Notes under the pieces: model-generated
The model's input: only the letters and a program-made list of their open reading frames with translations
What the model was told of the DNA's origin: nothing
The model's database searches: none
Assembly: GCF_016894385.1 (NCBI RefSeq)
Contig: NZ_CP069812.1
Coordinates: forward strand, 2,046,001-2,110,000
Direction: 5' to 3'
Length of the DNA stretch: 64,000 nucleotides
Source of the DNA: Cupriavidus oxalaticus
GTDB lineage: Bacteria; Pseudomonadota; Gammaproteobacteria; Burkholderiales; Burkholderiaceae
Position numbers and translations under genes: made by a program
Shown here: positions 44,826 through 56,100 of the stretch, piece after piece
Position numbering within the stretch: the stretch's first letter is position 1
How the letters are laid out: each line of letters opens with the position of its first letter

Positions 44826-45148
44826 GGTTTCTCGTGTGGTATCGGCCTGGTATGGGCCTGGTATGGGCGATGGCCAGTGTTCAGACGCCGGACTATGCGG
44901 GAGCCGGCGCGGCGTGACGACTGCGCCCCAAAATACCCCCCAAGCCCGAGAATTGGGGCTAATCATACCATCGCAAATGCCCTCTCCGGCCCGTTTGGCG
45001 GTCGCGCCCGCGTCATATTTTCGGGCGATTTCCCTTGCTTTTCCGTCCCTTACACGCGCTTCCGCATGCACTTTGGCAAGCAGCGCCCGCGGCGCCCGGC
45101 CATGGCCGCGCGATGTGCCGGGCCTTTGCACGAGATATCAGTTACGCC

Positions 45149-45176
45149 TTGCGCTGGGCAACTCGCGTACTATCAT
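45149..45176 (+). promoter_or_regulatory. Candidate sigma-70 promoter of the respiratory cluster
   Basis: TTGCGC (45149-45154), 16 bp, TATCAT (45171-45176) on the plus strand would start transcription near 45183, about 120 nt before the first gene. I see no FNR/Anr-type TTGAT-N4-ATCAA box in the 477-nt spacer. Confidence 0.35.
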
Positions 45177-45220
45177 TCAGGCAAAATGGATAGTTCCGGG
45201 CTGTGCCCTGAATGTCCTTT

Positions 45221-45240
45221 AATGGCGCCTTTGCGCCATT
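45221..45240. promoter_or_regulatory. Inverted repeat in the leader of the respiratory cluster
   Basis: AATGGCG-CCTTTG-CGCCATT is a perfect 7-bp inverted repeat about 60 nt before the first gene of the cluster, within the predicted leader. It could be an operator or an RNA hairpin. The rest of the 44826-45302 spacer shows nothing else I can support. Confidence 0.45.
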
Positions 45241-45302
45241 TGACGCTCGGGGGAAAATAAAAGAGTGCCCCACCCACGCGGTGCTCGGAGGCAGGAAGCA
45301 TT

Positions 45303-46031
45303 ATGGGTTCCTTTCTTCGCAACGCTCGCTGCCTGCAACTGGCAGTACTCAGCCTGCTGAGTGTTCCCGTTTTTTCCGTTTTTGCCTATGAAGTCGCCCC
45401 GGTCAGCGGCGGCGGCAAGATCGAGGGCAAGGTCACCTTCCAGGGCACGGTCCCGATCCGCAAGATCATCCCCACCAAGGATCGCGAGGTCTGCGGCGGC
45501 CCGCGCGACGAACCCCAGGTTCGCGTCGGCGCCGGCAAGGGGGTCCAGGATGCCGTCGTCTATCTCAAGGAAGTCCCCAAGGGCAAGCCCTGGGGTGCGG
45601 CGGACAAGGTTCCCGTGCTCGACCAGGAACACTGCATCTTCAAGCCCGCGGTGCAGGTGATCCGGCCCGGCAAGCTGGAAGTCGCCAACTCCGATCCGGT
45701 CCTGCACAACACCCACGGTTTCTACGGCCAGCGCACCGCGTTCAACCTGGCGCTGCCCGAGAAAGGGGTCAGGATCACGCGCGAGCTGCCGCGGCCCGGG
45801 CTGGTCCGGGTCGAATGCGACGCGCATGGCTGGATGCTGGCCCACATCTATGTGGCGGACAGCCCGTACTACGCGCTGACGGGCGAAGACGGCAGCTTCC
45901 GCATCGATGACATTCCACCCGGCAACTACACCCTGGTCGCCTCGCAGCACTACACCGGCGACACCGAGACGCCAGTCACGGTCACCGGCGGCCAGACCGC
46001 GAAACTGACGATCGAACTCAAGAAGAAATAG
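45303..46031 (+). CDS. Exported cupredoxin-like protein with CarboxypepD_reg-like domain
   Basis: Protein of 242 residues with a signal peptide (about residues 1-28, LQLAVLSLLSVPVFSVFA). The centre resembles a cupredoxin: NSDPVLHNTHG supplies His135, and ECDAHGWM supplies Cys172, His175 and Met178, spaced much like a type 1 copper site. The C-terminus (YALTGEDGSFRIDDIPPGNY) is a carboxypeptidase-regulatory-like beta sandwich. It is probably periplasmic and copper-binding, so it could donate electrons or copper to the oxidase encoded downstream; neither role is shown by sequence alone. The ATG at 45303 follows GGAGGCAGGAAG. It is the first gene of the cluster. Confidence 0.75.
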   Translation: MGSFLRNARCLQLAVLSLLSVPVFSVFAYEVAPVSGGGKIEGKVTFQGTVPIRKIIPTKDREVCGGPRDEPQVRVGAGKGVQDAVVYLKEVPKGKPWGAADKVPVLDQEHCIFKPAVQVIRPGKLEVANSDPVLHNTHGFYGQRTAFNLALPEKGVRITRELPRPGLVRVECDAHGWMLAHIYVADSPYYALTGEDGSFRIDDIPPGNYTLVASQHYTGDTETPVTVTGGQTAKLTIELKKK

Positions 46032-46088
46032 AGCGCCAGGCTTCGCCGCAGTACTTTCATCACCCCCCGGGGGGCGGAGGACCGCCAG

Positions 46089-47216
46089 ATGAACTCTCTC
46101 GACAGCGAACGACGCGAATTGCACCGGACCCTCGCCGGTTCGGGCGATCGCCCGGAAGGCGGCGCGGTGTGGACACGCCGCACCTTCCTGCACCATGCCC
46201 TGTTCAAAGGCGTGGCAGGCGCGGCCGCATGCGGGTTTTTCCCGCTCCTGAACACGCTCGACGTGGCCTACGGGCAGACCGGCCAGAGCTTCCGCTTCGC
46301 CTGGGTCTCCGACACGCACCTCTACCCCAAGGAGCTCAACTCCCGCTTCGTGGAGAAGACCGTGCGCGCCTTCAGGGAGGTGCAGGCCATGAACCCGCCG
46401 GCCGACTTCATGATCTTCGGCGGCGACCTGGCGCAGCTGGGCGACCCCGTCGAACTGCAGCTCGGCTCGGAACTGCTGAAGGAGGTGAAGATCCGCAAGG
46501 TCTTCATCCCCGGCGAGCACGACTGGTATCTCGACATGGGCTCGACGTGGAACAAGATGTTCGGCGCCTCGCCCTGGACCTTCGACCACAAGGGCGTGCG
46601 CGTGATCGGGCTGAACACGATCGCCGGCGCGCCGGACTTCTGGACCGCGCGCAAGATGACGCCGAAGGAACGCATGGGCCATATGGCCACGCTCGACGGC
46701 ACGCTGGGCGGCGCGTGGTCGGTCATCGGCGAGAAGCAGCTGCGCTGGCTCAATTCGACGCTGTCGAACTGGCCCAAGAGCAGCCCGGTCATCCTGTTCA
46801 CCCATACGCCGCTGTACGAGTACTACCCGCCGTGGAATTTCTGGATCCGCGACTGGCGCGAGGCGCATGAAATCCTCAAGCCCTACGCCAACGTCACCAA
46901 CGTCCACGGCCATACGCACCAGGTGCTCTACAACGAGATCGGCAAGGTGCGCTCGATCGGCATGCTGGCCACCTCCTGGCCGTGGCCGTATGCGCCGGAA
47001 GGCGTGCCGCTGCTGACCAAGCCGATGGTCCGCGCCGATCCGGGCGACCACTTCGACGGCGTGGGCTGGAGCATCCTGACCATGACGCCGCAGGGACGGG
47101 TGGAAAACGAGTACAAGATGTGGCGCAAGACGGTGTTCGCCGACCAGCCGGCGGATTCCGGCACCGAGGACAACCGCAACCAGGTCCTCAGCCCGCGCAT
47201 CGCCGACCGGATCTAG
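46089..47216 (+). CDS. Tat-exported metallophosphoesterase
   Basis: Calcineurin-like phosphoesterase of 375 residues. A twin-arginine signal (TRRTFLHHALFKGVAGAA, Arg30-Arg31) implies folded export, probably with cofactor. Metal-site motifs follow in order: SDTH (Asp75, His77), GGDLAQ (Asp113), GEHD (142-145), THTP (His239) and GHTH (274-277). The third motif is normally GNHD; here Glu143 replaces the metal-binding Asn. The substrate is unknown. It lies 57 nt after the cupredoxin-like gene, behind a GGGGGGCGGAGG stretch, and 44 nt before a SoxA-like cytochrome, so it looks like an integral member of the respiratory operon. Confidence 0.85.
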   Translation: MNSLDSERRELHRTLAGSGDRPEGGAVWTRRTFLHHALFKGVAGAAACGFFPLLNTLDVAYGQTGQSFRFAWVSDTHLYPKELNSRFVEKTVRAFREVQAMNPPADFMIFGGDLAQLGDPVELQLGSELLKEVKIRKVFIPGEHDWYLDMGSTWNKMFGASPWTFDHKGVRVIGLNTIAGAPDFWTARKMTPKERMGHMATLDGTLGGAWSVIGEKQLRWLNSTLSNWPKSSPVILFTHTPLYEYYPPWNFWIRDWREAHEILKPYANVTNVHGHTHQVLYNEIGKVRSIGMLATSWPWPYAPEGVPLLTKPMVRADPGDHFDGVGWSILTMTPQGRVENEYKMWRKTVFADQPADSGTEDNRNQVLSPRIADRI

Positions 47217-47260
47217 TCCGGCCGGCCCCTCATCCGGCGCAGCAATGCGTGAGGAGAGAC

Positions 47261-47722
47261 ATGATGAAAAACGACAAATGGCATGCCCGCGCCCTGACGG
47301 CGGGCGTCGCCGTGCTGCTGCTGGTCGGCTATGACAGCGACCAGCCGATGGCACACAAAGAACCCCACACCGCAGAACAGTTGAAGGCGTTCGAGGACGT
47401 CTTCATGGAACAGGTGAGGACTGGCGACCTGCTGTTCCACGGCGACGCCGCCACGGAGAAACAGCTGAACGTCAAGCTCTCGAACACCGGCATGGCCTGC
47501 GCCATGTGCCACCCCTTTGCCTCCGACACGCATCCGCACGAATTCCCCAAGTTCCAGGAGCAGATGAACGAATTCGCCACGCTGCGCGACATGATCAACT
47601 GGTGCATCGAGAAGCCCAATGAAGGCGAGAAGATCGACCCCAACGGGCCGGCCATGAAAGCGCTCGAAGCCTACACGTACTACTCGAACCGCAACAGCAA
47701 GCTGGACCCCGGCAGGCACTGA
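47261..47722 (+). CDS. SoxA-like monoheme cytochrome c
   Basis: Exported c-type cytochrome of 153 residues. The hydrophobic start (residues 8-22) is a signal peptide or anchor. One heme motif, CAMCH (80-84), follows. The region after it (FQEQMNEFATLRDMINWCIE, then KPNEGEKI and MKALEAYTYYSN) resembles the C-terminal half of SoxA/TsdA-type cytochromes, including the conserved Asn-x-Cys, here NWC, although no other sox genes are present. A role as electron carrier for the downstream oxidase is inferred from context. The ATG at 47261 follows GAGGAGAG; the stop is 37 nt before ccoN. Confidence 0.75.
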   Translation: MMKNDKWHARALTAGVAVLLLVGYDSDQPMAHKEPHTAEQLKAFEDVFMEQVRTGDLLFHGDAATEKQLNVKLSNTGMACAMCHPFASDTHPHEFPKFQEQMNEFATLRDMINWCIEKPNEGEKIDPNGPAMKALEAYTYYSNRNSKLDPGRH

Positions 47723-47759
47723 GCCGCCGCCCTGCTGACGGAACCAACGGAGCAAGGAT

Positions 47760-49190
47760 ATGACCGCCGCCCGCGCGACATCGGCCGCATCCGAGGCCTT
47801 TCCCGACCTGGATTCGCTGATCGACCGCGGGCTTGTCCTCAAGTGGCTCTACTGGGGACTGTTCTGGCTGATGTTCACGCCCAGCATCGGCGTGACCATC
47901 TCCAGCCTGTTCAACTTCCCCGACTACCTGGGCACCTCGCAATACCTCACCTTCGGCCGCTTGCGGCCGATGCATGTCAATGGCGTGATCTTCGGCGCCT
48001 TCTCCACGCTGTTCATCGGGCTGTGCCACTACCTGCTGCCGCGCCTGTGCGGCGTGCCGGTCTGGAAGGGCCACTGGGGGCACTGGCTGGTGTGGATCTG
48101 GAACCTGGGACTGATCGCCGGGATGGCGTCGCTGATGCTCGGCTACAACCAGGGACTGGAAGCCGGCGAGTTCCCGCTGGCGATCGACGCGGTGATCTTC
48201 TTCGTGGTCTCGGTCACGACCGTGCAGTTCCTGATGACCATCGCCCACCGGCGCGAACCCCAGCTCTACGTGGCGGTGTGGTACCTGATCGGCGCCTTTG
48301 TCTGGACCGTGATGAACCTGGTGCTGGGCAGCTTCATCCTGCCCTACGCCATCACCGGCATCAACAGCGCCGCCTTCCACGGCCTGTTCATCCACTACAT
48401 CGTGGGCTTGTGGATCACGCCGGCGGGCTACGTGCTGATCTACTACTTCCTGCCGGCGAGCGTGCAGAACCCGGTCTACAGCCACAAGCTGTCGCTGGTG
48501 GGGTTCTGGTCGCTGGCCCTGTTCTACCCCTTCGTCGGCATCCATCACTACCTGTACAGCCCCATCGCCGACTGGGCCGAGACGCTGGCGATCATTACCT
48601 CGATGCTGCTGATCGTGCCGGTCTGGACGGTGCTGCAGAATTTCTTCGGCACCATGATCGGCCGCTGGCACACCTTCACCCAGAACCTGACCGCCAAGTT
48701 CCTGATCATGGGCTCGCTGATGTACCTGGTGGGCTGCTTCCAGGGCTCCACCGAGGCGCTGCGCTCGATCCAGCAGCCCACGCACTTCAGCGACTTCGTC
48801 ATCTCGCACTCGCACCTGACGGTGTTCGGCACCTTCGTGGTGTGGGCCATCGGCGGCACCATCTATGTGCTGCCCAAGCTGGTGAAGCGGCCGCTCTGGT
48901 CGCCCAGGCTGGGCAACTGGTCGTTCTGGCTGATCACCTTCGGCATCAGCCTGATGGGACTGGACCTGACCATGGCCGGCCTGCAGCAGGGCTACATGCT
49001 GATGGCGGGCGTGGAATGGCTGGACTCGCTGGTGGCGATCCGGCCCTACTGGCTGGTGCGCACCATCGCCGGCATCTCGATGGACATCGGCATGTCGCTG
49101 CTGGTCTATAACCTGATGCGCACCGCGCTCTCGGCCGAGCCGGCCACGGCACCGGGCGCGGCCGGTGCCGTACGAGGGGCGTCGACATGA
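47760..49190 (+). CDS. C-family (cbb3-like) heme-copper oxidase catalytic subunit
   Basis: Membrane subunit I of 476 residues with about twelve helices. Ligands can be placed by comparison with CcoN: low-spin heme His72 (RPMHVNG) and His352; high-spin heme His350 (SHSH); CuB His212, His262 and His263 (GIHHYLY). The active-site Tyr256 sits six residues before the His pair, as in cbb3 oxidases, which argues for oxygen reduction rather than NO reduction. His212/262/263, Tyr256 and His350/352 keep a constant offset of five from Pseudomonas stutzeri CcoN numbering. At the equivalent of its Glu323 there is Gln328 (FQGS instead of FEGP). The ATG at 47760 follows GGAGCAAGG. The stop overlaps the next gene by 4 nt (ATGA). 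Confidence 0.88.
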   Translation: MTAARATSAASEAFPDLDSLIDRGLVLKWLYWGLFWLMFTPSIGVTISSLFNFPDYLGTSQYLTFGRLRPMHVNGVIFGAFSTLFIGLCHYLLPRLCGVPVWKGHWGHWLVWIWNLGLIAGMASLMLGYNQGLEAGEFPLAIDAVIFFVVSVTTVQFLMTIAHRREPQLYVAVWYLIGAFVWTVMNLVLGSFILPYAITGINSAAFHGLFIHYIVGLWITPAGYVLIYYFLPASVQNPVYSHKLSLVGFWSLALFYPFVGIHHYLYSPIADWAETLAIITSMLLIVPVWTVLQNFFGTMIGRWHTFTQNLTAKFLIMGSLMYLVGCFQGSTEALRSIQQPTHFSDFVISHSHLTVFGTFVVWAIGGTIYVLPKLVKRPLWSPRLGNWSFWLITFGISLMGLDLTMAGLQQGYMLMAGVEWLDSLVAIRPYWLVRTIAGISMDIGMSLLVYNLMRTALSAEPATAPGAAGAVRGAST

Positions 49191-50893
49191 CCCGGCGCCG
49201 CCCGGACGGCCGCTACGGCCTGCGCTACTATGCCCTGGTCGCGGGCTTCGGCTGCATCTCGCTGGCGGCCTTCGTGCAGGGCGTGCTGCCGATGCTGGAG
49301 CCGCAGTCGCGCACCGACAAGGTCACCCAGGTGGTGCGCACCGACCTGGGCGAGCTCAAGTGGACCGAGGCTCGTGCCACCGACTACTCCCCGTTGCAGC
49401 TGCGCGGCCGCGAAGTCTATACGCGCGAAGGCTGCTGGTACTGCCATTCGCAGTTCGTGCGCCCCGTCACTGGCGAGACCCGGCGCTGGGGCCCGGTGTC
49501 CCAGGCCGGCGAATACGCCTTCGACCTGCCGCACCTGTTCTCGACCCGCCGCATCGGCCCCGACCTGTCGCGCGTCGGGCTGAAGTACAGCGACGCCTGG
49601 CACCTGGCGCACTTCTGGGATCCGCGCATGCTCTCGCCCGACTCGATCATGCCGCGCTTCTCCGCGCTGTTCTCCGGGCCGCATACCGCGAAGCTGGTGA
49701 CCGACCCGCAGAGCCGCCGCACCATCGAGAACACGCCCGAGACCCGGCTGCTGTTCGATTTCGGCAGCAGCGAAACCATCGCGCTGACCCCCAATTCGGC
49801 CGGCCTGCTCTATGTGCCGGAACGCGGCAAGTACCCGGTGATCCTGACCCCGAACAAGGAATTCGAAGGCGAGACCGTGATCCTGATCGCGGACACCGAA
49901 GACCTGCGCGCGCTGGTGGCCTACCTGCAGAAGCTCGGCACCAACCGCGGCAAGTGGCGCGACCGCTTCGAGCCCCAGCAGATGGAAGCATCGCAGACCA
50001 GCCTGCCGCGCTCGGAGGAATGGATCGCGCACGGCAAGAACGTGTACGAGCGCCGCTGCCTGGGCTGCCATGGCGTCAAGGGCGACGGCAACGGGCCGGC
50101 GGCCGCCTTCATGCAGCAGGATCGCCCGCGCAACTTCACGCTGGGCGTGTTCAAGTTCCGGCTCACGCCGTCAGGCTCCATGCCGGACGACGGCGACCTG
50201 CTGCGCACCATCACGCGCGGCGTGCGCGGCACGGCGATGCCCAGCTGGCACGAACTGCCGGAAAAGGACCGGCTGGCCGTGATCCAGTACATCAAGTACG
50301 TGCTGGCGGCCGACCGCAGCAACCCCGACAAGCCCTATTACTATTTCCTCGAAGAGCCGCCGCTGGCGCCGATCTTCATCGGGGTGCCGCCCAAGCCGTC
50401 GGCCGAAACCATCCAGCGCGGCAAGCAGGCCTGGGACCGCGCCAAATGCTGGGAATGCCACGGCCGCGGCGGCAAGGGCGACGGGGAGAAGGCAGCGGGG
50501 CTCAAGGACGATTTCGGTTTCCCGATCCCGCCGGCCAACCTGACCACCGGCCAGTTCAAGTCCGGGGCCTCGGTAAAGGACATCTTCCGCACCATCAGCA
50601 CGGGCCTGTCGGGCACGCCGATGCCGTCGTTCAGCGACACGGTGTCCGAGGAGGACCGCTGGGCGCTGTCCTACTTCGTCCTGTCCCTGTCGGCCTACAC
50701 CGATCCGCTGACCGGAGAGCCGCTGCCGATTCCGCCCGGGCAGAAGGCGGCACTGAATGACCCCGCCCTGCGCGCCGACGAATCGCACCACGCCTATCGC
50801 CCGGCGCCGGCCGGACAGCCGGCGGAGCACGGCACCTATGCCGGCGAGGCGTGGGCCAGGCGGCATGGTTTCGTCTTCGCCGACGAGCGCTAG
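49187..50893 (+). CDS. Triheme CcoO-like/diheme cytochrome c fusion subunit
   Basis: Protein of 568 residues combining functions that cbb3 oxidases split between CcoO and CcoP. One N-terminal membrane anchor (about residues 13-33) precedes a CcoO-like domain with GCWYCHSQFVRP (heme motif 83-87) and RIGPDLSRVG. A domain of about 120 residues without heme motif follows. Then come two class I cytochrome c domains with CLGCH (291-295) and CWECH (421-425), each with a distal Met candidate (TAMPSW, TPMPSF). It overlaps the catalytic subunit gene by 4 nt. No separate ccoO or canonical ccoP is present, so this protein probably supplies the whole electron-entry path. Confidence 0.85.
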   Translation: MTRRRPDGRYGLRYYALVAGFGCISLAAFVQGVLPMLEPQSRTDKVTQVVRTDLGELKWTEARATDYSPLQLRGREVYTREGCWYCHSQFVRPVTGETRRWGPVSQAGEYAFDLPHLFSTRRIGPDLSRVGLKYSDAWHLAHFWDPRMLSPDSIMPRFSALFSGPHTAKLVTDPQSRRTIENTPETRLLFDFGSSETIALTPNSAGLLYVPERGKYPVILTPNKEFEGETVILIADTEDLRALVAYLQKLGTNRGKWRDRFEPQQMEASQTSLPRSEEWIAHGKNVYERRCLGCHGVKGDGNGPAAAFMQQDRPRNFTLGVFKFRLTPSGSMPDDGDLLRTITRGVRGTAMPSWHELPEKDRLAVIQYIKYVLAADRSNPDKPYYYFLEEPPLAPIFIGVPPKPSAETIQRGKQAWDRAKCWECHGRGGKGDGEKAAGLKDDFGFPIPPANLTTGQFKSGASVKDIFRTISTGLSGTPMPSFSDTVSEEDRWALSYFVLSLSAYTDPLTGEPLPIPPGQKAALNDPALRADESHHAYRPAPAGQPAEHGTYAGEAWARRHGFVFADER

Positions 50894-50906
50894 CCGGAGA
50901 CCTGAT

Positions 50907-51101
50907 ATGGCCGAACTCACCTTCCTGCAATTCGTGGTGGCCTTCTTCATGAGCCTGGGCGCGGTCTGCCTGTTCATCTGGGCCGTGCTCTCGGGGCTGT
51001 TCGAGGATGTCGAGGCCATCAAGTACAAGGCCTACCGGGCCGAAGTCGATGACGACGAGAACGACGAGAACGACGAGACGGAGACCTCCAGCCATGCCTG
51101 A
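50907..51101 (+). CDS. CcoS-like small membrane protein
   Basis: Protein of 64 residues. One transmembrane helix (about 8-28) is followed by IWAVLSGLFEDVEAIKYKAY and a very acidic tail (VDDDENDENDETE). The layout helix, then WAV-x-SG-x-F-x-D, then acidic end matches CcoS, a cbb3 assembly factor needed for cofactor insertion. The ATG at 50907 follows a GGAGA 13 nt after the preceding stop. It overlaps the next gene by 8 nt. Confidence 0.7.
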   Translation: MAELTFLQFVVAFFMSLGAVCLFIWAVLSGLFEDVEAIKYKAYRAEVDDDENDENDETETSSHA

Positions 51102-51303
51102 CGAACCTGAAAACACCCCCGCCGGACAGGACGTTCCGCATCACCAGCAGACCGAAGACTACGGCGGCGGCCATATCCAGGCGCGGCACGGCCGCATCAA
51201 CGCGTGGCTGCTGGTCGTCTACCTGGTGCTGTTCGTCTGGGCGCTGTACTACGGCTACACCTATTGGGGCGGGCTCGGGCCGGGCCTGGACCTGACGCGC
51301 TAG
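51094..51303 (+). CDS. Small single-helix membrane protein of the oxidase cluster
   Basis: Protein of 69 residues: a hydrophilic His/Gln-rich N-terminus (to about residue 35), one membrane helix (INAWLLVVYLVLFVWALYYG) and a short glycine-rich end. The layout is reminiscent of the heme-free N-terminal part of CcoP, which in canonical oxidases carries the membrane anchor, but the similarity is too weak to name it. The ATG at 51094 lies inside the preceding gene, implying coupled translation. Confidence 0.7.
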   Translation: MPDEPENTPAGQDVPHHQQTEDYGGGHIQARHGRINAWLLVVYLVLFVWALYYGYTYWGGLGPGLDLTR

Positions 51304-51338
51304 GCCTTTTACCCACAGGAGCCTCACAGGAGACCACC

Positions 51339-51434
51339 ATGGCACCGAGACTGCTGCTGGCGCTTGCGCTGCTGAACCTGGCGTTCCTGTTCGGCGAGCT
51401 CGCGCTGAACGTGCTCGGCGTGGGCCTGCTGTAA
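51339..51434 (+). CDS. 31-residue hydrophobic peptide of the oxidase cluster
   Basis: A 32-codon frame encoding a single membrane helix (MAPRLLLALALLNLAFLFGE, then LALNVLGVGLL). CACAGGAGACC just before the ATG is a good ribosome-binding site, and the frame lies in a tightly packed operon, which supports translation. It could be a small oxidase subunit of the CcoQ/CcoM kind. I find no sequence similarity that proves it. Confidence 0.55.
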   Translation: MAPRLLLALALLNLAFLFGELALNVLGVGLL

Positions 51435-51446
51435 CGGGAGCCCGCC

Positions 51447-51539
51447 ATGACCCTTGCCGAATCGATCGCCTTCTGGATCTTCGTCGTCATGACGGTTGGC
51501 TTCTTTGCCTGGGTGCTCTATCTGGCGCTACGCAAGTAG
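51447..51539 (+). CDS. 30-residue membrane peptide of the oxidase cluster
   Basis: A 31-codon frame starting at ATG 51447, 12 nt after the previous stop and behind ACGGGAGCC. It encodes MTLAESIAFWIFVVMTVGFF followed by AWVLYLALRK, a single helix with a basic end pointing to the cytoplasm. It is too short for most gene finders. As with its neighbour, a role as accessory oxidase subunit is inferred from position, size and ribosome-binding site only. Confidence 0.5.
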   Translation: MTLAESIAFWIFVVMTVGFFAWVLYLALRK

Positions 51540-51549
51540 CGTGGATGCC

Positions 51550-52314
51550 ATGAGCGACCTGTGGCTGATCTTCCTGGCAGGCACCGCGGGCAGCATGCAT
51601 TGCGTGGGCATGTGCGGCGGCTTTGCCTGCGGCCTGGGCCCGGCGTCCGGCGGCAGCCTTGCCACCCTGCTGCGGCACCTGGCCTACAGCCTGGGCCGCA
51701 TCGGCAGCTATGCCTTCCTTGGCACGCTGGCCGGCTACCTGGGCATGCTGCTGGTCGGCCATGCCGGCGACTCGGGTGCAGGCAGCGCTGCCGGCATGGT
51801 GCAGCGCGGCCTGGCGATCCTGTCCGGCGGGCTGATGCTGCTGATCGGGCTGAACCTTGCCTGGCGCCTTGGCCGCGGCGGCCATGCGCTCGGCGGCGCG
51901 GGCGCGCAGTGGCTCGCGCAATCGCTGCGCACGCTGCTGCGCCAGCCGGGCTTGGGCGCGCCGCTGGCCTTCGGCGTGCTGAACGGCTTCCTGCCCTGCC
52001 CGCTGGTCTACGCCTTTGCCGCGCAGGCGGCTGCCAGCGGCACCGCGCTGCACGGCCTGCAGATCATGGTCGCGTTCGGGCTCGGCACCTTGCCCGCGAT
52101 GCTGGCGATGGGCGGCCTGGGCCTGTGGTGGCGCGCGCGCCGCGGGCCGGCGGCGGTCCCGGCGCAGCCCGTCGTGGCGAGCTTCCTGCCGGCGCCGGCG
52201 GCGCGCCTGAACTGGCGCATGCAGGGCGTGCGCGCGGCCGGCGCGTTCATCGCCGTGCTCGGCCTGATCACGCTGGCGCGCGGGATCGTGCCGATCGGCG
52301 CCCACCTGCACTAG
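51550..52314 (+). CDS. SafE/DsbD-like membrane protein (TauE/SafE family label)
   Basis: Polytopic membrane protein of 254 residues with about six helices. The first helix ends GSMHCVGMCGGFACGLGP, the Cys-rich motif (MHCxGMCGG) of the DsbD_2 group, often annotated sulfite exporter TauE/SafE and commonly found beside ccoI/ccoS. A copper-import or copper-delivery role is likely from context but not proven. The ATG at 51550 opens the first helix; a GTG at 51541 is an alternative. It is followed 8 nt later by the copper ATPase gene. Confidence 0.82.
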   Translation: MSDLWLIFLAGTAGSMHCVGMCGGFACGLGPASGGSLATLLRHLAYSLGRIGSYAFLGTLAGYLGMLLVGHAGDSGAGSAAGMVQRGLAILSGGLMLLIGLNLAWRLGRGGHALGGAGAQWLAQSLRTLLRQPGLGAPLAFGVLNGFLPCPLVYAFAAQAAASGTALHGLQIMVAFGLGTLPAMLAMGGLGLWWRARRGPAAVPAQPVVASFLPAPAARLNWRMQGVRAAGAFIAVLGLITLARGIVPIGAHLH

Positions 52315-52322
52315 CGGCGGCC

Positions 52323-54503
52323 ATGGACACTTCACACACCTGCAGCCACTGCCAGTTGCCGGTCGGGCGGCTGGGCCAGCGGCGCGAGCTGGACGGGGCA
52401 GCGCACTGGTTCTGCTGCTATGGCTGCTGCCTGGCCTACCAGGTCCACCATGGCGAACACGAAGAGCCGCAGGCGGCGGCCGCGCTGATCCGGCTCGGCG
52501 TGGGCGGCTTCCTCGCGATGAATGTCATGCTGTTCAGCTGGCTGCTCTATGCGGACGCCTTCACCGGTGACGAAGCCTGGCTGCGCGGCCCGGTGCACTG
52601 GCTGCTGTGGGTGCTGGCAACGCCGCTGGTGCTGCTGCTGGGCCGGCCCTTCGCCGAAGGCGCCTGGCAGGCCGCGCGGCAGGGCCGGCTGTCGACCGAC
52701 ACGCTGGTCTGCATCGGCGTGCTGGCGGCCTACTGCTATTCCGGCTGGCAGGTATTGCGCGGCTCGGAGCTGGTCTATTTCGACACCGCTGCCATGGTGC
52801 TGCTGCTGTTCACGCTGGGGCGCCTGCTGGAAGCGCAGGTGCGCGTGCGCACGGCACGCCGGCTCGCGCCCATGCTGGCGGCCGCGCGCGCCGAGGCGCG
52901 CGTGGTCGATGGCGGCACGGAAAGCTGGCGCCCCGTCGTCGCGATCGGGCCGGGCGAACTGGTGCGGATCCTGCCCGGCGAGCGCGTGCCGGTCGACGGC
53001 ATCGTCGTGGACGGCCGCTCCGAATGCGACGAGGCGGTCCTGACCGGCCAGAGCGAGCCGCAGTTCAAGCCACCGGGCGCGCTGGTCCACGCCGGCAGCA
53101 TCAACGGCAGCCGCCCGCTGCTGGTCCGCGCCACCGTGCCGGGCTCCCGGACCCGGTGGCAGCAGATCGGCCGGCAGGTGCGCGAAGCGCTGGCGCGCAA
53201 GTCGCTCGCGGGCGACACCATCGACCGCATCATCGCCGTGTTCATTCCCGGCGTGCTGGCGCTGGCCGCGGCCAGCGCATGGTTCTGGGGCAGCCGCGCC
53301 GGCGACCTGGCGCAGGCGGCCGACGCCGCCATGCTGGCGGGGCTGGCGGTGCTGGTGGTGGCTTGTCCGTGCTCGCTGGGCCTGGCAGCGCCGCTCACGC
53401 ATGCGCTGGCCATCGGCCAGGCCGCGCAGCGCGGCATCCTGGTGCGCGGCGGCGACGCGCTGGAACGGCTGGCGCGCCTCCGGGGCATTGCCTTCGACAA
53501 GACCGGCACGCTGACCGCGGACATTCCGCACCCGGTCGGCATGCAGGCCGAAGGCGCCAGCCCCGCGCAAGTGCTGGAGGTGGCCGGCGCCCTGGCGCGG
53601 GCGTCGGACCACCCGGTGGCACGGGCCATCGCCATGATGGCGCGCGCCGCGGGCACGCCAGGCACGGTGCCCAGCGCAACGCCAGCCTCCGGCGAAGTCG
53701 AGACCAGCACCGGCGAGGGCTTGTCGGGGCAGGTCGGCGACCGGCATTGCGCAATGGGCTCGCCGGCCTTTTTCGGCACGCTGGGCTGGCACGTCCCGCC
53801 CGCCCTGCTCGCCACCGCGCCGCTGGGATGCACGCTGGTGCTGGTGGGCTGGGCCGGCCAGGCGCACGGGCTGATCGCGTTGCGCACGCTGCCCATGCCC
53901 GAGGTCCGCGACGTGATCGGCGCAATGCAGCGCCAGGGCCTGCGCACGCGGCTCCTCAGCGGCGACAATCCGCATGCGGTGGCAGCCATGGCCAGCGCGC
54001 TGCAGATTGCCGAATGGCAGGCAGCGCTGCTGCCGCAGGACAAGGTGCGCGCGCTGCGCGACTGGGCCGCCGGCACAGGCCCGGTCGCCATGGTCGGCGA
54101 TGGCCTCAACGACGGGCCGGTGCTGGCTGCGGCCTCGGTCGGCATCGCCGTGGGCAATGCCTCCGACCTGGCGCGCGAAAGCGCGGATATCGTGCTGCCG
54201 CGCACGGGGCTGGCCAGCCTGCCGTGGCTGCTGCGGCAAGCGCGGACGGTGCACCGCACGGTCCGCGCCAACCTGGCATGGGCCTTCGGCTATAACGCCA
54301 TTGCGCTGGCGCTGGCTGCCAGCGGCCTGCTGCAACCGGTGCTGGCGGCCGTGCTGATGGGCGGCTCCAGCATCCTTGTGGCGATGCGCTCGTGGCGCGC
54401 CAGCGCGATGGCCGATCCCTATCCGGGAACAACGGGCAGCGCCGCTTCCACCGCGCCGGCCCGGCCGGCCGCGTTGCCCTCAGGCCACGGGGTGGCACCA
54501 TGA
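52323..54503 (+). CDS. ccoI: CcoI-type copper-translocating P1B ATPase
   Basis: Exports Cu(I) to the periplasm or membrane for CuB-site assembly of cbb3-type oxidases. Of 726 residues. The N-terminus lacks an ordinary HMA domain and instead has a Cys-rich knuckle (CSHCQLPVG, then FCCYGCCLAY, residues 7-43), as in CcoI/FixI proteins. The transmembrane metal site is ACPCS (Cys348, Cys350). The phosphorylation site is DKTGTLT (Asp392), the HP motif is SDHPVARAI, and the hinge is GDGLND (592-597). The ATG at 52323 follows the SafE gene by 8 nt. The stop overlaps the Sco-like gene by 4 nt. Confidence 0.93.
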   Translation: MDTSHTCSHCQLPVGRLGQRRELDGAAHWFCCYGCCLAYQVHHGEHEEPQAAAALIRLGVGGFLAMNVMLFSWLLYADAFTGDEAWLRGPVHWLLWVLATPLVLLLGRPFAEGAWQAARQGRLSTDTLVCIGVLAAYCYSGWQVLRGSELVYFDTAAMVLLLFTLGRLLEAQVRVRTARRLAPMLAAARAEARVVDGGTESWRPVVAIGPGELVRILPGERVPVDGIVVDGRSECDEAVLTGQSEPQFKPPGALVHAGSINGSRPLLVRATVPGSRTRWQQIGRQVREALARKSLAGDTIDRIIAVFIPGVLALAAASAWFWGSRAGDLAQAADAAMLAGLAVLVVACPCSLGLAAPLTHALAIGQAAQRGILVRGGDALERLARLRGIAFDKTGTLTADIPHPVGMQAEGASPAQVLEVAGALARASDHPVARAIAMMARAAGTPGTVPSATPASGEVETSTGEGLSGQVGDRHCAMGSPAFFGTLGWHVPPALLATAPLGCTLVLVGWAGQAHGLIALRTLPMPEVRDVIGAMQRQGLRTRLLSGDNPHAVAAMASALQIAEWQAALLPQDKVRALRDWAAGTGPVAMVGDGLNDGPVLAAASVGIAVGNASDLARESADIVLPRTGLASLPWLLRQARTVHRTVRANLAWAFGYNAIALALAASGLLQPVLAAVLMGGSSILVAMRSWRASAMADPYPGTTGSAASTAPARPAALPSGHGVAP

Positions 54504-55096
54504 GACGATGGCTGGCCAGGCTGGCCGCCGGCCTCTTCGCTTGCTTGGCCTGGTCGCTGGCGGGCCTGGCGCCCGCCGCGCATCACGAGACCCAGCGCAC
54601 CGACCTGGCGTCGCACGGCTGGCCGGTGGGCGACTTCAGCCTGACCGACCAGGACGGCCGCGCCTTCACCCAGGCACGGCTGCAAGGCCACTGGACCCTC
54701 GTGCTGCTGGGCGACACCCATTGCGGGAATCCATGCCGCGCGGCGCTGGCGGCGCTGGCCGGGCTGTACCAGCGCCTCAGCCCCACGCAGAAGCTTGCCA
54801 CCACGCAGGTGCTGTTCGTCTCGCTCGACCCGCAACGCGATACGCCGGACGCGCTGCGGCGCTATCTCGCGCCGTTCGATGCGCGCTTCGTCGGCGCCAC
54901 CGGCAGCCCGCAGACGCTGGCCAGGCTCCTCGACGACCTGGGCGCCGGGCCGGACATGCCGCCCGCCGCCAACGCGGACTATCCCGGCTCGCTGATCCTG
55001 GTCGGGCCGGACGCCACCGTGCGCGCGCAGTTCCTGCCCCCCTTCGATGTGACATTGCTGACCGCGGCCTACCTGAAGGCGCGGGTACGCAAGTGA
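54500..55096 (+). CDS. Sco1/SenC-like protein lacking the usual copper His
   Basis: Thioredoxin-fold protein of 198 residues with an N-terminal signal or anchor (residues 4-27). The CxxxC copper/redox motif is present (Cys75-GNP-Cys79 in GDTHCGNPCRAAL). The His normally found in a DHS context near residue 160 is not there: the segment reads ADYPGSLILVGPD. It may act as a thiol reductase rather than a copper donor, or use another ligand. The ATGA overlap with ccoI places it as the last gene of the cluster. Related SenC proteins help assemble CuB or CuA sites. Confidence 0.82.
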   Translation: MRRWLARLAAGLFACLAWSLAGLAPAAHHETQRTDLASHGWPVGDFSLTDQDGRAFTQARLQGHWTLVLLGDTHCGNPCRAALAALAGLYQRLSPTQKLATTQVLFVSLDPQRDTPDALRRYLAPFDARFVGATGSPQTLARLLDDLGAGPDMPPAANADYPGSLILVGPDATVRAQFLPPFDVTLLTAAYLKARVRK

Positions 55097-55137
55097 TGGG
55101 CAGCCGGCGTCAGCCGCCCGCCGAAATACCCGCCTGC

Positions 55138-56100
55138 TCAGGCCGCCGCGCCCTCGCAAGCCTGCCCGGCCCGGGCCGGGCGCGCCCGGTGGACCACCCC
55201 GGAGAGCGCCCCCGCGGCAACGATGCACAGGCCGCCCGCGGCTTCCTTCCAGCTCAGCACTTCGGTCGCCAGCCACCACGACGACACCGCGGCGATGACG
55301 ATCTCGAACAGCATCAGCAGCGATACCCGGTTCGCCGGCAAGCGCTGCAGCCCGTACTGCACGACCGAATTGCTGACCACCAGCACGGCCGCCAGGCCCA
55401 GCACCAGCATGGCCGCGCTGACCTGCGCACCGGGCACGATGGCCAGCGCCGGGCCGTCCAGCAGCAGCGCCGCGGGCACGCCGACCACCGTGCAGCCGAG
55501 GTACACCACCACCGTGCGCGCACGCGCATCCATGTCGGGGAAGCGCTGGCCGGCACGCCGCGACAGCACGTTGTTGACGGCAAAGCCCATGCCGCCGACC
55601 AGCCCGGACCATTCCGCCGCGCTGCCCGGCAGCGGCACGCCCACCTCCGGCGTCCACAGCATCAGCCCGGCACCGGACAGCGCCAGCGCCACCAGCCCCA
55701 GCCCGGCCGCCGACAGGCGTTCGCCCAGGAACAGCCGGGCAAACAGCGCGGTCCAGACCGGCGTCAGGTAGAACAGCAGCAGCACGCGCATCACATGGCC
55801 GTTGACGCTGCCCCAGACAAAGCCGGCATTGGTCACGCCCGCGGCCAGGCCGATCGCGGCGAACAGCCAGTGCGGGCGCAAGCCGGCCAGTTGCCGGCGG
55901 AATGCCAGCAGGGACAGGATGGCAGCGACCGCGCTGACCAGCGCCGCCGCGTGCATGCCGCCCAGGCCCCAGCCGGCCAGCACCCGGTACGGAAACCACG
56001 CGATGCCCCAGACCGAAGCGCCAAGCAAGATCGAAAGTGATGCCTTGACCGCATGACGGTCGGCCAGCGCAGGCTGCGCCGCAACAGTATTAGTACTCAT
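55138..56100 (-). CDS. EamA/DMT-family inner-membrane transporter
   Basis: Putative exporter of 320 residues with about ten hydrophobic segments in two EamA repeats (first helix LSILLGASVWGIAWFPYRVL; second repeat near MGFAVNNVLSRRAGQRFPDM). The ATG at 56100 gives MSTNTVAAQPALADRHAVKA. It is convergent with the respiratory cluster, 41 nt from the Sco-like stop, and divergent from dapC. Substrate unknown; it is only distantly similar to the EamA protein at 6425. Confidence 0.85.
   Translation of the reverse strand: MSTNTVAAQPALADRHAVKASLSILLGASVWGIAWFPYRVLAGWGLGGMHAAALVSAVAAILSLLAFRRQLAGLRPHWLFAAIGLAAGVTNAGFVWGSVNGHVMRVLLLFYLTPVWTALFARLFLGERLSAAGLGLVALALSGAGLMLWTPEVGVPLPGSAAEWSGLVGGMGFAVNNVLSRRAGQRFPDMDARARTVVVYLGCTVVGVPAALLLDGPALAIVPGAQVSAAMLVLGLAAVLVVSNSVVQYGLQRLPANRVSLLMLFEIVIAAVSSWWLATEVLSWKEAAGGLCIVAAGALSGVVHRARPARAGQACEGAAA

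Follow-up and report, generated by a model that had tools for sequence, protein, structure and literature searches.

The window analysed here is a 64,000-nucleotide stretch of Cupriavidus oxalaticus DNA (positions 2046001-2110000 of contig C2 in a 6.69-Mb genome of two contigs), and the system in question is a cluster for a heme-copper oxidase encoded by 12 co-oriented open reading frames (ORFs) on the + strand at 45303-55096, with starts assigned from sequence. A first-pass annotation of this DNA had described the same 12 genes with several overlaps of 4-8 nucleotides (nt); both statements are borne out, the overlaps being 4 nt at 49187-49190, 8 nt at 51094-51101, and 4 nt at 54500-54503. Its domain identities were recovered as well, with matches to COX1, DsbD_2 (SafE type), copper P-type ATPase, SCO1/SenC, Metallophos, and the SoxA-TsdA cytochrome. 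The cluster genes are real beyond chance, because tblastn (E 1e-3) recovers them across 76 related loci; 11 of the 12 proteins were matched in 27 to 76 of these. The cluster comprises the following genes (protein lengths in amino acids, aa):

45303..46031, + strand: exported type-1 copper (cupredoxin) protein with a C-terminal carboxypeptidase-regulatory-like domain, 242 aa (PF13620, 43 bits; likely copper ligands)
46089..47216, + strand: metallophosphoesterase with a twin-arginine-type N-terminus and a GpdQ/Rv0805-like fold, not SoxB, 375 aa (Metallophos domain)
47261..47722, + strand: SoxA/TsdA-family monoheme cytochrome with Cys as the likely sixth heme ligand, 153 aa (PF21342, 34.9 bits; TsdA/SoxA structural neighbours)
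47760..49190, + strand: CcoN-like catalytic subunit of a separate C-family heme-copper oxidase clade, 476 aa (PF00115, COX1, 237.3 bits; tree; residues)
49187..50893, + strand: CcoO fused to a CcoP-type diheme cytochrome c, three c hemes, 568 aa (PF02433, 149.9 bits, and two cytochrome c stretches)
50907..51101, + strand: CcoS-like small membrane protein, 64 aa (PF03597, FixS, 24.3 bits, cut-off 23.1)
51094..51303, + strand: probable stand-alone CcoP N-terminal membrane anchor, 69 aa (FixP_N likeness; tblastn in 72/76 loci)
51339..51434, + strand: single-helix protein, 31 aa (tblastn in 13/76 loci)
51447..51539, + strand: single-helix protein, 30 aa (tblastn in 27/76 loci)
51550..52314, + strand: SafE/DsbD_2-type membrane protein, 254 aa (PF13386, 121.6 bits, from the longer reading 51496-52311)
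52323..54503, + strand: CcoI-like copper P-type ATPase, 726 aa (TIGR01511, 416.1 bits, cut-off 397)
54500..55096, + strand: Sco/SenC-like copper chaperone, 198 aa (PF02630, 92.3 bits, from the longer reading 54392-55093)

The cluster encodes a heme-copper oxidase of the known superfamily and of the C-family type, whose catalytic subunit belongs to a clade of its own outside canonical CcoN. For the IQ-TREE tree (LG+F+R5, 461 columns, 78 sequences), sequences were first sorted into groups by how they scored against the window protein, and the tree then served to test these groups. All 44 rows of the clade group together (ultrafast bootstrap, UFBoot, 99). Separate from them is a group (99) in which 26 canonical CcoN rows (100) are joined by four rows from another divergent group and by a single row of a third type. 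Nesting inside ordinary CcoN, considered in the first-pass annotation as the contrary case, was not observed: the 26 canonical rows group without the window protein at support 100. Rows of nitric oxide reductase (cNOR) are separated from the C-family rows at a support of 100; these three sequences form the outgroup on a branch of length 3.8, and the exact root is not secure. The best relative found for the window protein is that of Cupriavidus necator A5-1 (95% identity), and its score against the canonical model TIGR00780, 231.6 bits, lies under the cut-off of 583.15 bits.

Among solved structures, the best match is the catalytic subunit of cbb3 (PDB 3mk7), and heme and CuB ligand roles were assigned by alignment to this structure. 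Residues H72, H212, H262, H263, H350, H352, and Y256 are invariant in 44/44 clade rows. By alignment, Y256 is the helix VII tyrosine, Y251 in the 3mk7 chain, a position occupied by Ser or Thr in the three cNOR rows; the helix VI histidine was kept out of the cNOR comparison, as the alignment is out of register for these rows at that point. With 3mk7 numbered by the same alignment, its residues E323, Y237, and N208 are replaced by Gln, His, and Tyr in all clade rows. Two clade residues, Q328 (the E323 position, occupied by Glu in 26/26 canonical rows) and Y213, are unlike canonical CcoN in 44/44 rows. The Gln is common to both other divergent C-family groups, and the His at the Y237 position is common to one of them. 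From the active-site residues, we infer an oxidase of the O2-reductase type, with O2 as the substrate.

Further relatives of the catalytic subunit were encountered among the loci (designated L, with genomes designated G). Two ORFs of its family, at about 200 and 9001, are present in a Rokubacteria locus (L063). At L201 10237-10749 (G117), and in similar short matches, a second divergent C-family group occurs near a half-size CcoN-like protein of ~170 aa with an HxH motif, the gene of which adjoins c-type cytochrome-like and thioredoxin-like ORFs. A third divergent C-family subunit, of 553 aa and from the same genus, is encoded at L200 9047-10708 (G292), and its N-terminus resembles, by eye, a fused CcoS. 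At L086 8767-9654, from Cupriavidus sp. amp6, the beginning of the cupredoxin gene is joined in frame to a mid-gene portion of the CcoN-like sequence; this cluster is degraded by internal deletion, or misassembled.

The remaining membrane subunits are rearranged relatives of the canonical ones. In the triheme protein, residues 65-253 match FixO (PF02433, 149.9 bits, cut-off 29.6), two c-type heme domains are fused behind CcoO, and the three CxxCH motifs together with M155, M351, and M479 are retained by 75-76 of the 76 aligned rows. The absence of ccoO, ccoP, ccoG, and ccoH reported in the first-pass annotation is thus correct for ccoG and ccoH, neither of which is in the 12-gene cluster, but not for CcoO and the CcoP-type diheme domains, which exist as this fusion. 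Profile comparisons make the 69-aa protein a probable detached membrane anchor of CcoP: FixP_N was matched by 5 of 13 scanned members of its family (best E 3.3e-4), with only a chance-level match for the window's own copy, and the family profile aligned to 12 canonical CcoP N-termini at an hhalign probability of 65% (E 5.9e-5, single comparison). CcoP seems, then, to be split and rearranged, not missing. In L054 and L082, the C-terminus of the 69-aa protein has a segment that by eye resembles the 30-aa protein. The small membrane proteins had earlier been left unassigned to cco subunits, which has to be revised for the 64-aa protein: by Pfam it is a CcoS, so ccoS is present, and its TIGR00847 score is below that model's cut-off (18.8 vs 28.35 bits). 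The genome's canonical cluster (L219; ccoSNOQPGH with a second SafE, named by eye from ORFs) lies ~220 kb downstream and holds the only other FixO/CcoO gene of the genome. Service of the catalytic subunit by ccoO and ccoP from elsewhere, also raised in the first-pass annotation, is therefore not what is seen, as the cluster has a CcoO of its own.

Among the copper-handling proteins, the Sco/SenC-like protein has both C75 and C79 invariant (32 aligned rows). The G+C content is 73-74% at this copper-handling end (window 52001-56000) and 64-66% in the exported and catalytic genes, and the two halves of the cluster may have different histories. Upstream of the cluster, at 45100-45303, no FNR/Anr box was matched within 2 mismatches; a degenerate FNR/Anr pattern has 58 occurrences in the window, vs 29.6 expected.

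Three exported proteins precede the oxidase. The likely copper ligands of the cupredoxin, H135, C172, H175, and M178, are present in 57/58 aligned rows. The SoxA-like cytochrome passes PF21342 (34.9 vs cut-off 27 bits), stays under the TIGR04484 cut-off (28.5 vs 110 bits), and retains CxxCH and C115 in 53/53 rows; C115 is its predicted heme ligand. All three exported genes occur in 46 of the 59 related loci with at least 6.5 kb of upstream DNA, and these loci come from several phyla. The first-pass annotation had proposed a non-canonical C-family oxidase with exported partners of its own, and both the separate clade and the retention of the exported set agree with this proposal. The electron input that it suggested, through the copper protein or the SoxA-like cytochrome in place of the bc1-cytochrome c route, is putative.

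At E 1e-30, the esterase was found in 3 of 299 genomes of a phylum sample; the window's own genome is among these three, and each of them has SoxY. In 385 genomes from the class to which G224 belongs, the search at this threshold gave G224 only. On these counts, a common housekeeping enzyme was rejected. Orthology to SoxB was rejected on the GpdQ-like fold and on an own-genome search with TIGR04486 (E 0.001), which gave a single gene, the distant canonical SoxB. In a Foldseek comparison of the esterase, the SoxB structure 4uwq takes rank 39 (E 6.5e-3); it is not among the 50 entries listed by VIA, which by itself excludes nothing.

The strongest clue to the function is the SoxYZ and flavocytochrome c neighbourhood of relatives, which is not visible in the window and is missing from the first-pass annotation. 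Neighbourhoods were analysed by ORF grouping over the 76 related loci and the window, with a Pfam scan and tblastn counts. Two kinds of arrangement were seen: (i) in rhizobia and in a SAR324 locus (L020), SoxY, SoxZ, and the flavoprotein of flavocytochrome c sulfide dehydrogenase (FCSD) adjoin the cluster, together with a monoheme cytochrome in the rhizobia, and (ii) in Rokubacteria, Tectomicrobia, Entotheonella, a Binatia metagenome-assembled genome (MAG), and others, the oxidase and the SoxA-like gene have a SoxYZ fusion gene between them. By tblastn, SoxY, SoxZ, or SoxYZ is present in 32/76 loci, or 39/76 if the flavoprotein is included, many of these loci being close relatives and none belonging to the window's nearest ones. 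At the level of genomes, SoxY was found in 35 of 37 carriers of the oxidase vs 103 of 299 in the phylum sample, which includes the window's own genome (Fisher p 5e-13, uncorrected for phylogeny). The SoxY gene lies at most 12 kb from the oxidase in 14/37 carriers, with about 0.3 expected. The likely carrier cysteine near the C-terminus is present in 16/16 neighbouring SoxY proteins, GGC is visible in 12/13 SoxYZ fusions (L049 does not show it in the segment viewed), and both Cys motifs of FCSD are kept in 20/22. SoxB exceeds its cut-off in 17/37 carriers and is without a match at E 1e-40 in 16/37; many of these genomes are drafts, and its absence is unproven.

In Sinorhizobium meliloti ml56, the whole set spans about 17 kb of pSymA. 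A first block, soxY-soxZ-cytochrome c-flavoprotein, is followed on the opposite strand by SoxA-like-esterase-cupredoxin, then by SCO-hemA-groEL, and then by oxidase-SafE-ATPase. The SoxA-like gene, annotated as hypothetical, is 61% identical to that of the window. The hemA and groEL genes (L220 11938-14948) thus sit between the sulfur genes and the oxidase; among the 76 loci, such additions are hemA in 19, groEL in 21, and CtaG in 23. Just upstream of the pSymA oxidase, at L220 15725-15844, 40 aa remain of what was another SoxA-like gene (55% identical), a hint that the exported set and the oxidase used to be contiguous. Of 212 plasmid records matching at E 1e-50, 38 lie in the 60-80% identity band of the clade.

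We propose, with a rough probability of 0.5, that this C-family O2 reductase is the dedicated electron sink of periplasmic, carrier-bound sulfur oxidation. The gene content, active-site residues, clade, conservation of the exported set, statistical and physical SoxYZ/FCSD link, and retained carrier and redox cysteines on which the proposal is based were all computed; what we infer is that O2 is the substrate, each step of electron transfer, which sulfur compound is used, and what the esterase does. The membrane part would consist of the CcoN-like subunit (heme b, heme b3-CuB), the CcoO-CcoP fusion (three His/Met c hemes), the probable CcoP anchor, and CcoS, with copper supplied to the oxidase by CcoI, SafE, and Sco. 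The exported part, composed of the blue-copper protein, the SoxA-family cytochrome with its likely Cys-ligated heme, and the dimetal esterase, would oxidise or resolve sulfur adducts on SoxYZ, the latter being encoded elsewhere in the genome in Cupriavidus but next to the oxidase genes in rhizobia, SAR324, Rokubacteria, and other lineages. In some of the lineages, flavocytochrome c may offer sulfide a second point of entry. Electrons would flow from SoxYZ or FCSD to the SoxA-like heme and/or the cupredoxin, then to the triheme CcoO-P, heme b, heme b3-CuB, and finally O2. A bolder extension, which we hold only tentatively, is a widely transferred "sulfur oxidase" chain, in which SoxYZ-bound sulfur would be oxidised by a minimal module of the SoxA-like Cys-heme cytochrome, a GpdQ-like esterase standing in for SoxB, and a blue-copper carrier. 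This module would pass electrons directly to its own deep-branching C-family oxidase, without the use of quinone, bc1, or the general cytochrome c pool; such a chain would work in SoxB-less carriers and be carried on rhizobial symbiosis plasmids.

Several observations weigh against assigning the oxidase to sulfur oxidation, the foremost being the missing sox neighbours in the window and its nearest relatives, the loci devoid of the exported genes, and an esterase and SoxA-like pair found apart from the oxidase. No sox gene adjoins the window cluster, the own-genome soxY and soxB being ~1.55 Mb away, and the nearest relatives (beta-/gammaproteobacterial L011-L019, L067, L080, L081) are without SoxY, SoxZ, or SoxYZ in the available flanking DNA. 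No SoxY match was found in 2 of the 37 carrier genomes, both MAGs, and SoxYZ-like carriers occur in other settings too, as in TIGR04557, "quinoprotein dehydrogenase-associated". The esterase is GpdQ-like. The SoxA-like protein has a Met four residues before the Cys in 52/53 rows, at the spacing of TsdA Arg119, where the own genome's SoxA has Arg; PMC4423706 lists Arg119 among the residues shown to matter for thiosulfate. In 7 of the 59 loci, all Rokubacteria MAGs, none of the three exported genes is present. Finally, the esterase and SoxA-like pair was found once without the oxidase, in the same phylum (L154 1-10658, G224:C6), where it adjoins two MauG/peroxidase-like di-heme genes and pmoCAB-like genes with CopCD (named by eye); the esterase is 37% identical to the window's, no oxidase of the clade is present in the 19 kb read, and G224 yielded a single C-family gene, a canonical one. 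This pair suggests a wider role of the esterase and SoxA-like proteins.

The exported proteins could instead be assembly or repair factors for the copper and heme centres of a general cytochrome c oxidase, its link to sulfur being ecological. The abundance of biogenesis genes in the cluster (CcoI, Sco, SafE), the hemA, groEL, and CtaG genes added in relatives, and the position of the L154 pair beside another apparent copper enzyme in one genome are consistent with this, yet FCSD and SoxYZ keep redox or carrier cysteines and the proximity of SoxY is far above chance; we know of no role of FCSD or SoxYZ as biogenesis factors, and we consider this explanation rather doubtful. Slightly less likely, in our judgement, is that the oxidase is an ordinary branch of the cbb3 type, which receives its electrons from bc1 through soluble cytochrome c and whose neighbours merely hitch-hike. 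Such a branch would fit the His/Met ligands kept at all three c hemes and the Rokubacteria loci that lack the exported set, but it fits poorly with the separate clade and with the presence of all three exported genes in most loci across several phyla; moreover, canonical CcoN over the cut-off already exists in 17/37 carrier genomes, where a second ordinary copy would be redundant.

A nitric oxide reductase or other non-O2 enzyme is very improbable. CcoN and NorB are related, and Q328 and Y213 depart from canonical CcoN throughout the clade, the Gln also occurring in the two other divergent groups, whereas Tyr256 is kept in every clade row and is Ser or Thr in cNOR, the cNOR rows lie outside the C-family rows, and the best solved relative is a cbb3 oxidase. 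Nitric oxide reductase was rejected on the helix VII tyrosine and the tree.

C-family oxidases are usually viewed as a uniform group that receives electrons from bc1 and cytochrome c. The clade described here combines a rearranged subunit design with periplasmic partners that are conserved as a set and linked to sulfur carriers. Its members come from Proteobacteria, SAR324, Rokubacteria, and other groups, among them Sinorhizobium, which forms nodules and has the cluster on pSymA. If the link to sulfur oxidation is true, it would provide a testable route for SoxYZ organisms where no SoxB is found and would join sulfur oxidation to O2 use. No published description of the cluster, its subunit rearrangement, the separate clade, or the sulfur association was found in a full-text literature search (titles and abstracts), the coverage of which leaves out preprints and most subscription papers, or in the accessible parts of PMC6431628, PMC4423706, PMC10839748, and PMC2864759.

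With cbb3 CcoNOQP (3mk7), the cluster shares the catalytic ligands, the tyrosine, the CcoO monoheme domain, the CcoP-type diheme part, CcoS, and CcoI; it differs in the separate-clade catalytic subunit with a TIGR00780 score below the cut-off, the fused CcoO-diheme protein, the probably split CcoP anchor, Gln in place of 3mk7 E323, and the lack of ccoG and ccoH within the cluster. The bifunctional cbb3 subunit II/cytochrome c (PRK14486, NF011054) likewise has CcoO joined to cytochrome c, but the window's triheme protein reaches only 192.2 bits against its cut-off of 447, is longer, and has two c-type domains after CcoO. Unlike the thiosulfate dehydrogenase TsdA, the SoxA-like protein lacks a second heme domain and has Met at the Arg119 spacing. 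The likeness to the Sox system (SoxAX, SoxYZ, SoxB) lies in the SoxA-family cytochrome, the exported dimetal esterase, and the SoxYZ genes that many relatives have next to the cluster, whereas the esterase of the cluster is GpdQ-like, its SoxA-like protein is a single short domain, and it has its own linked oxidase.

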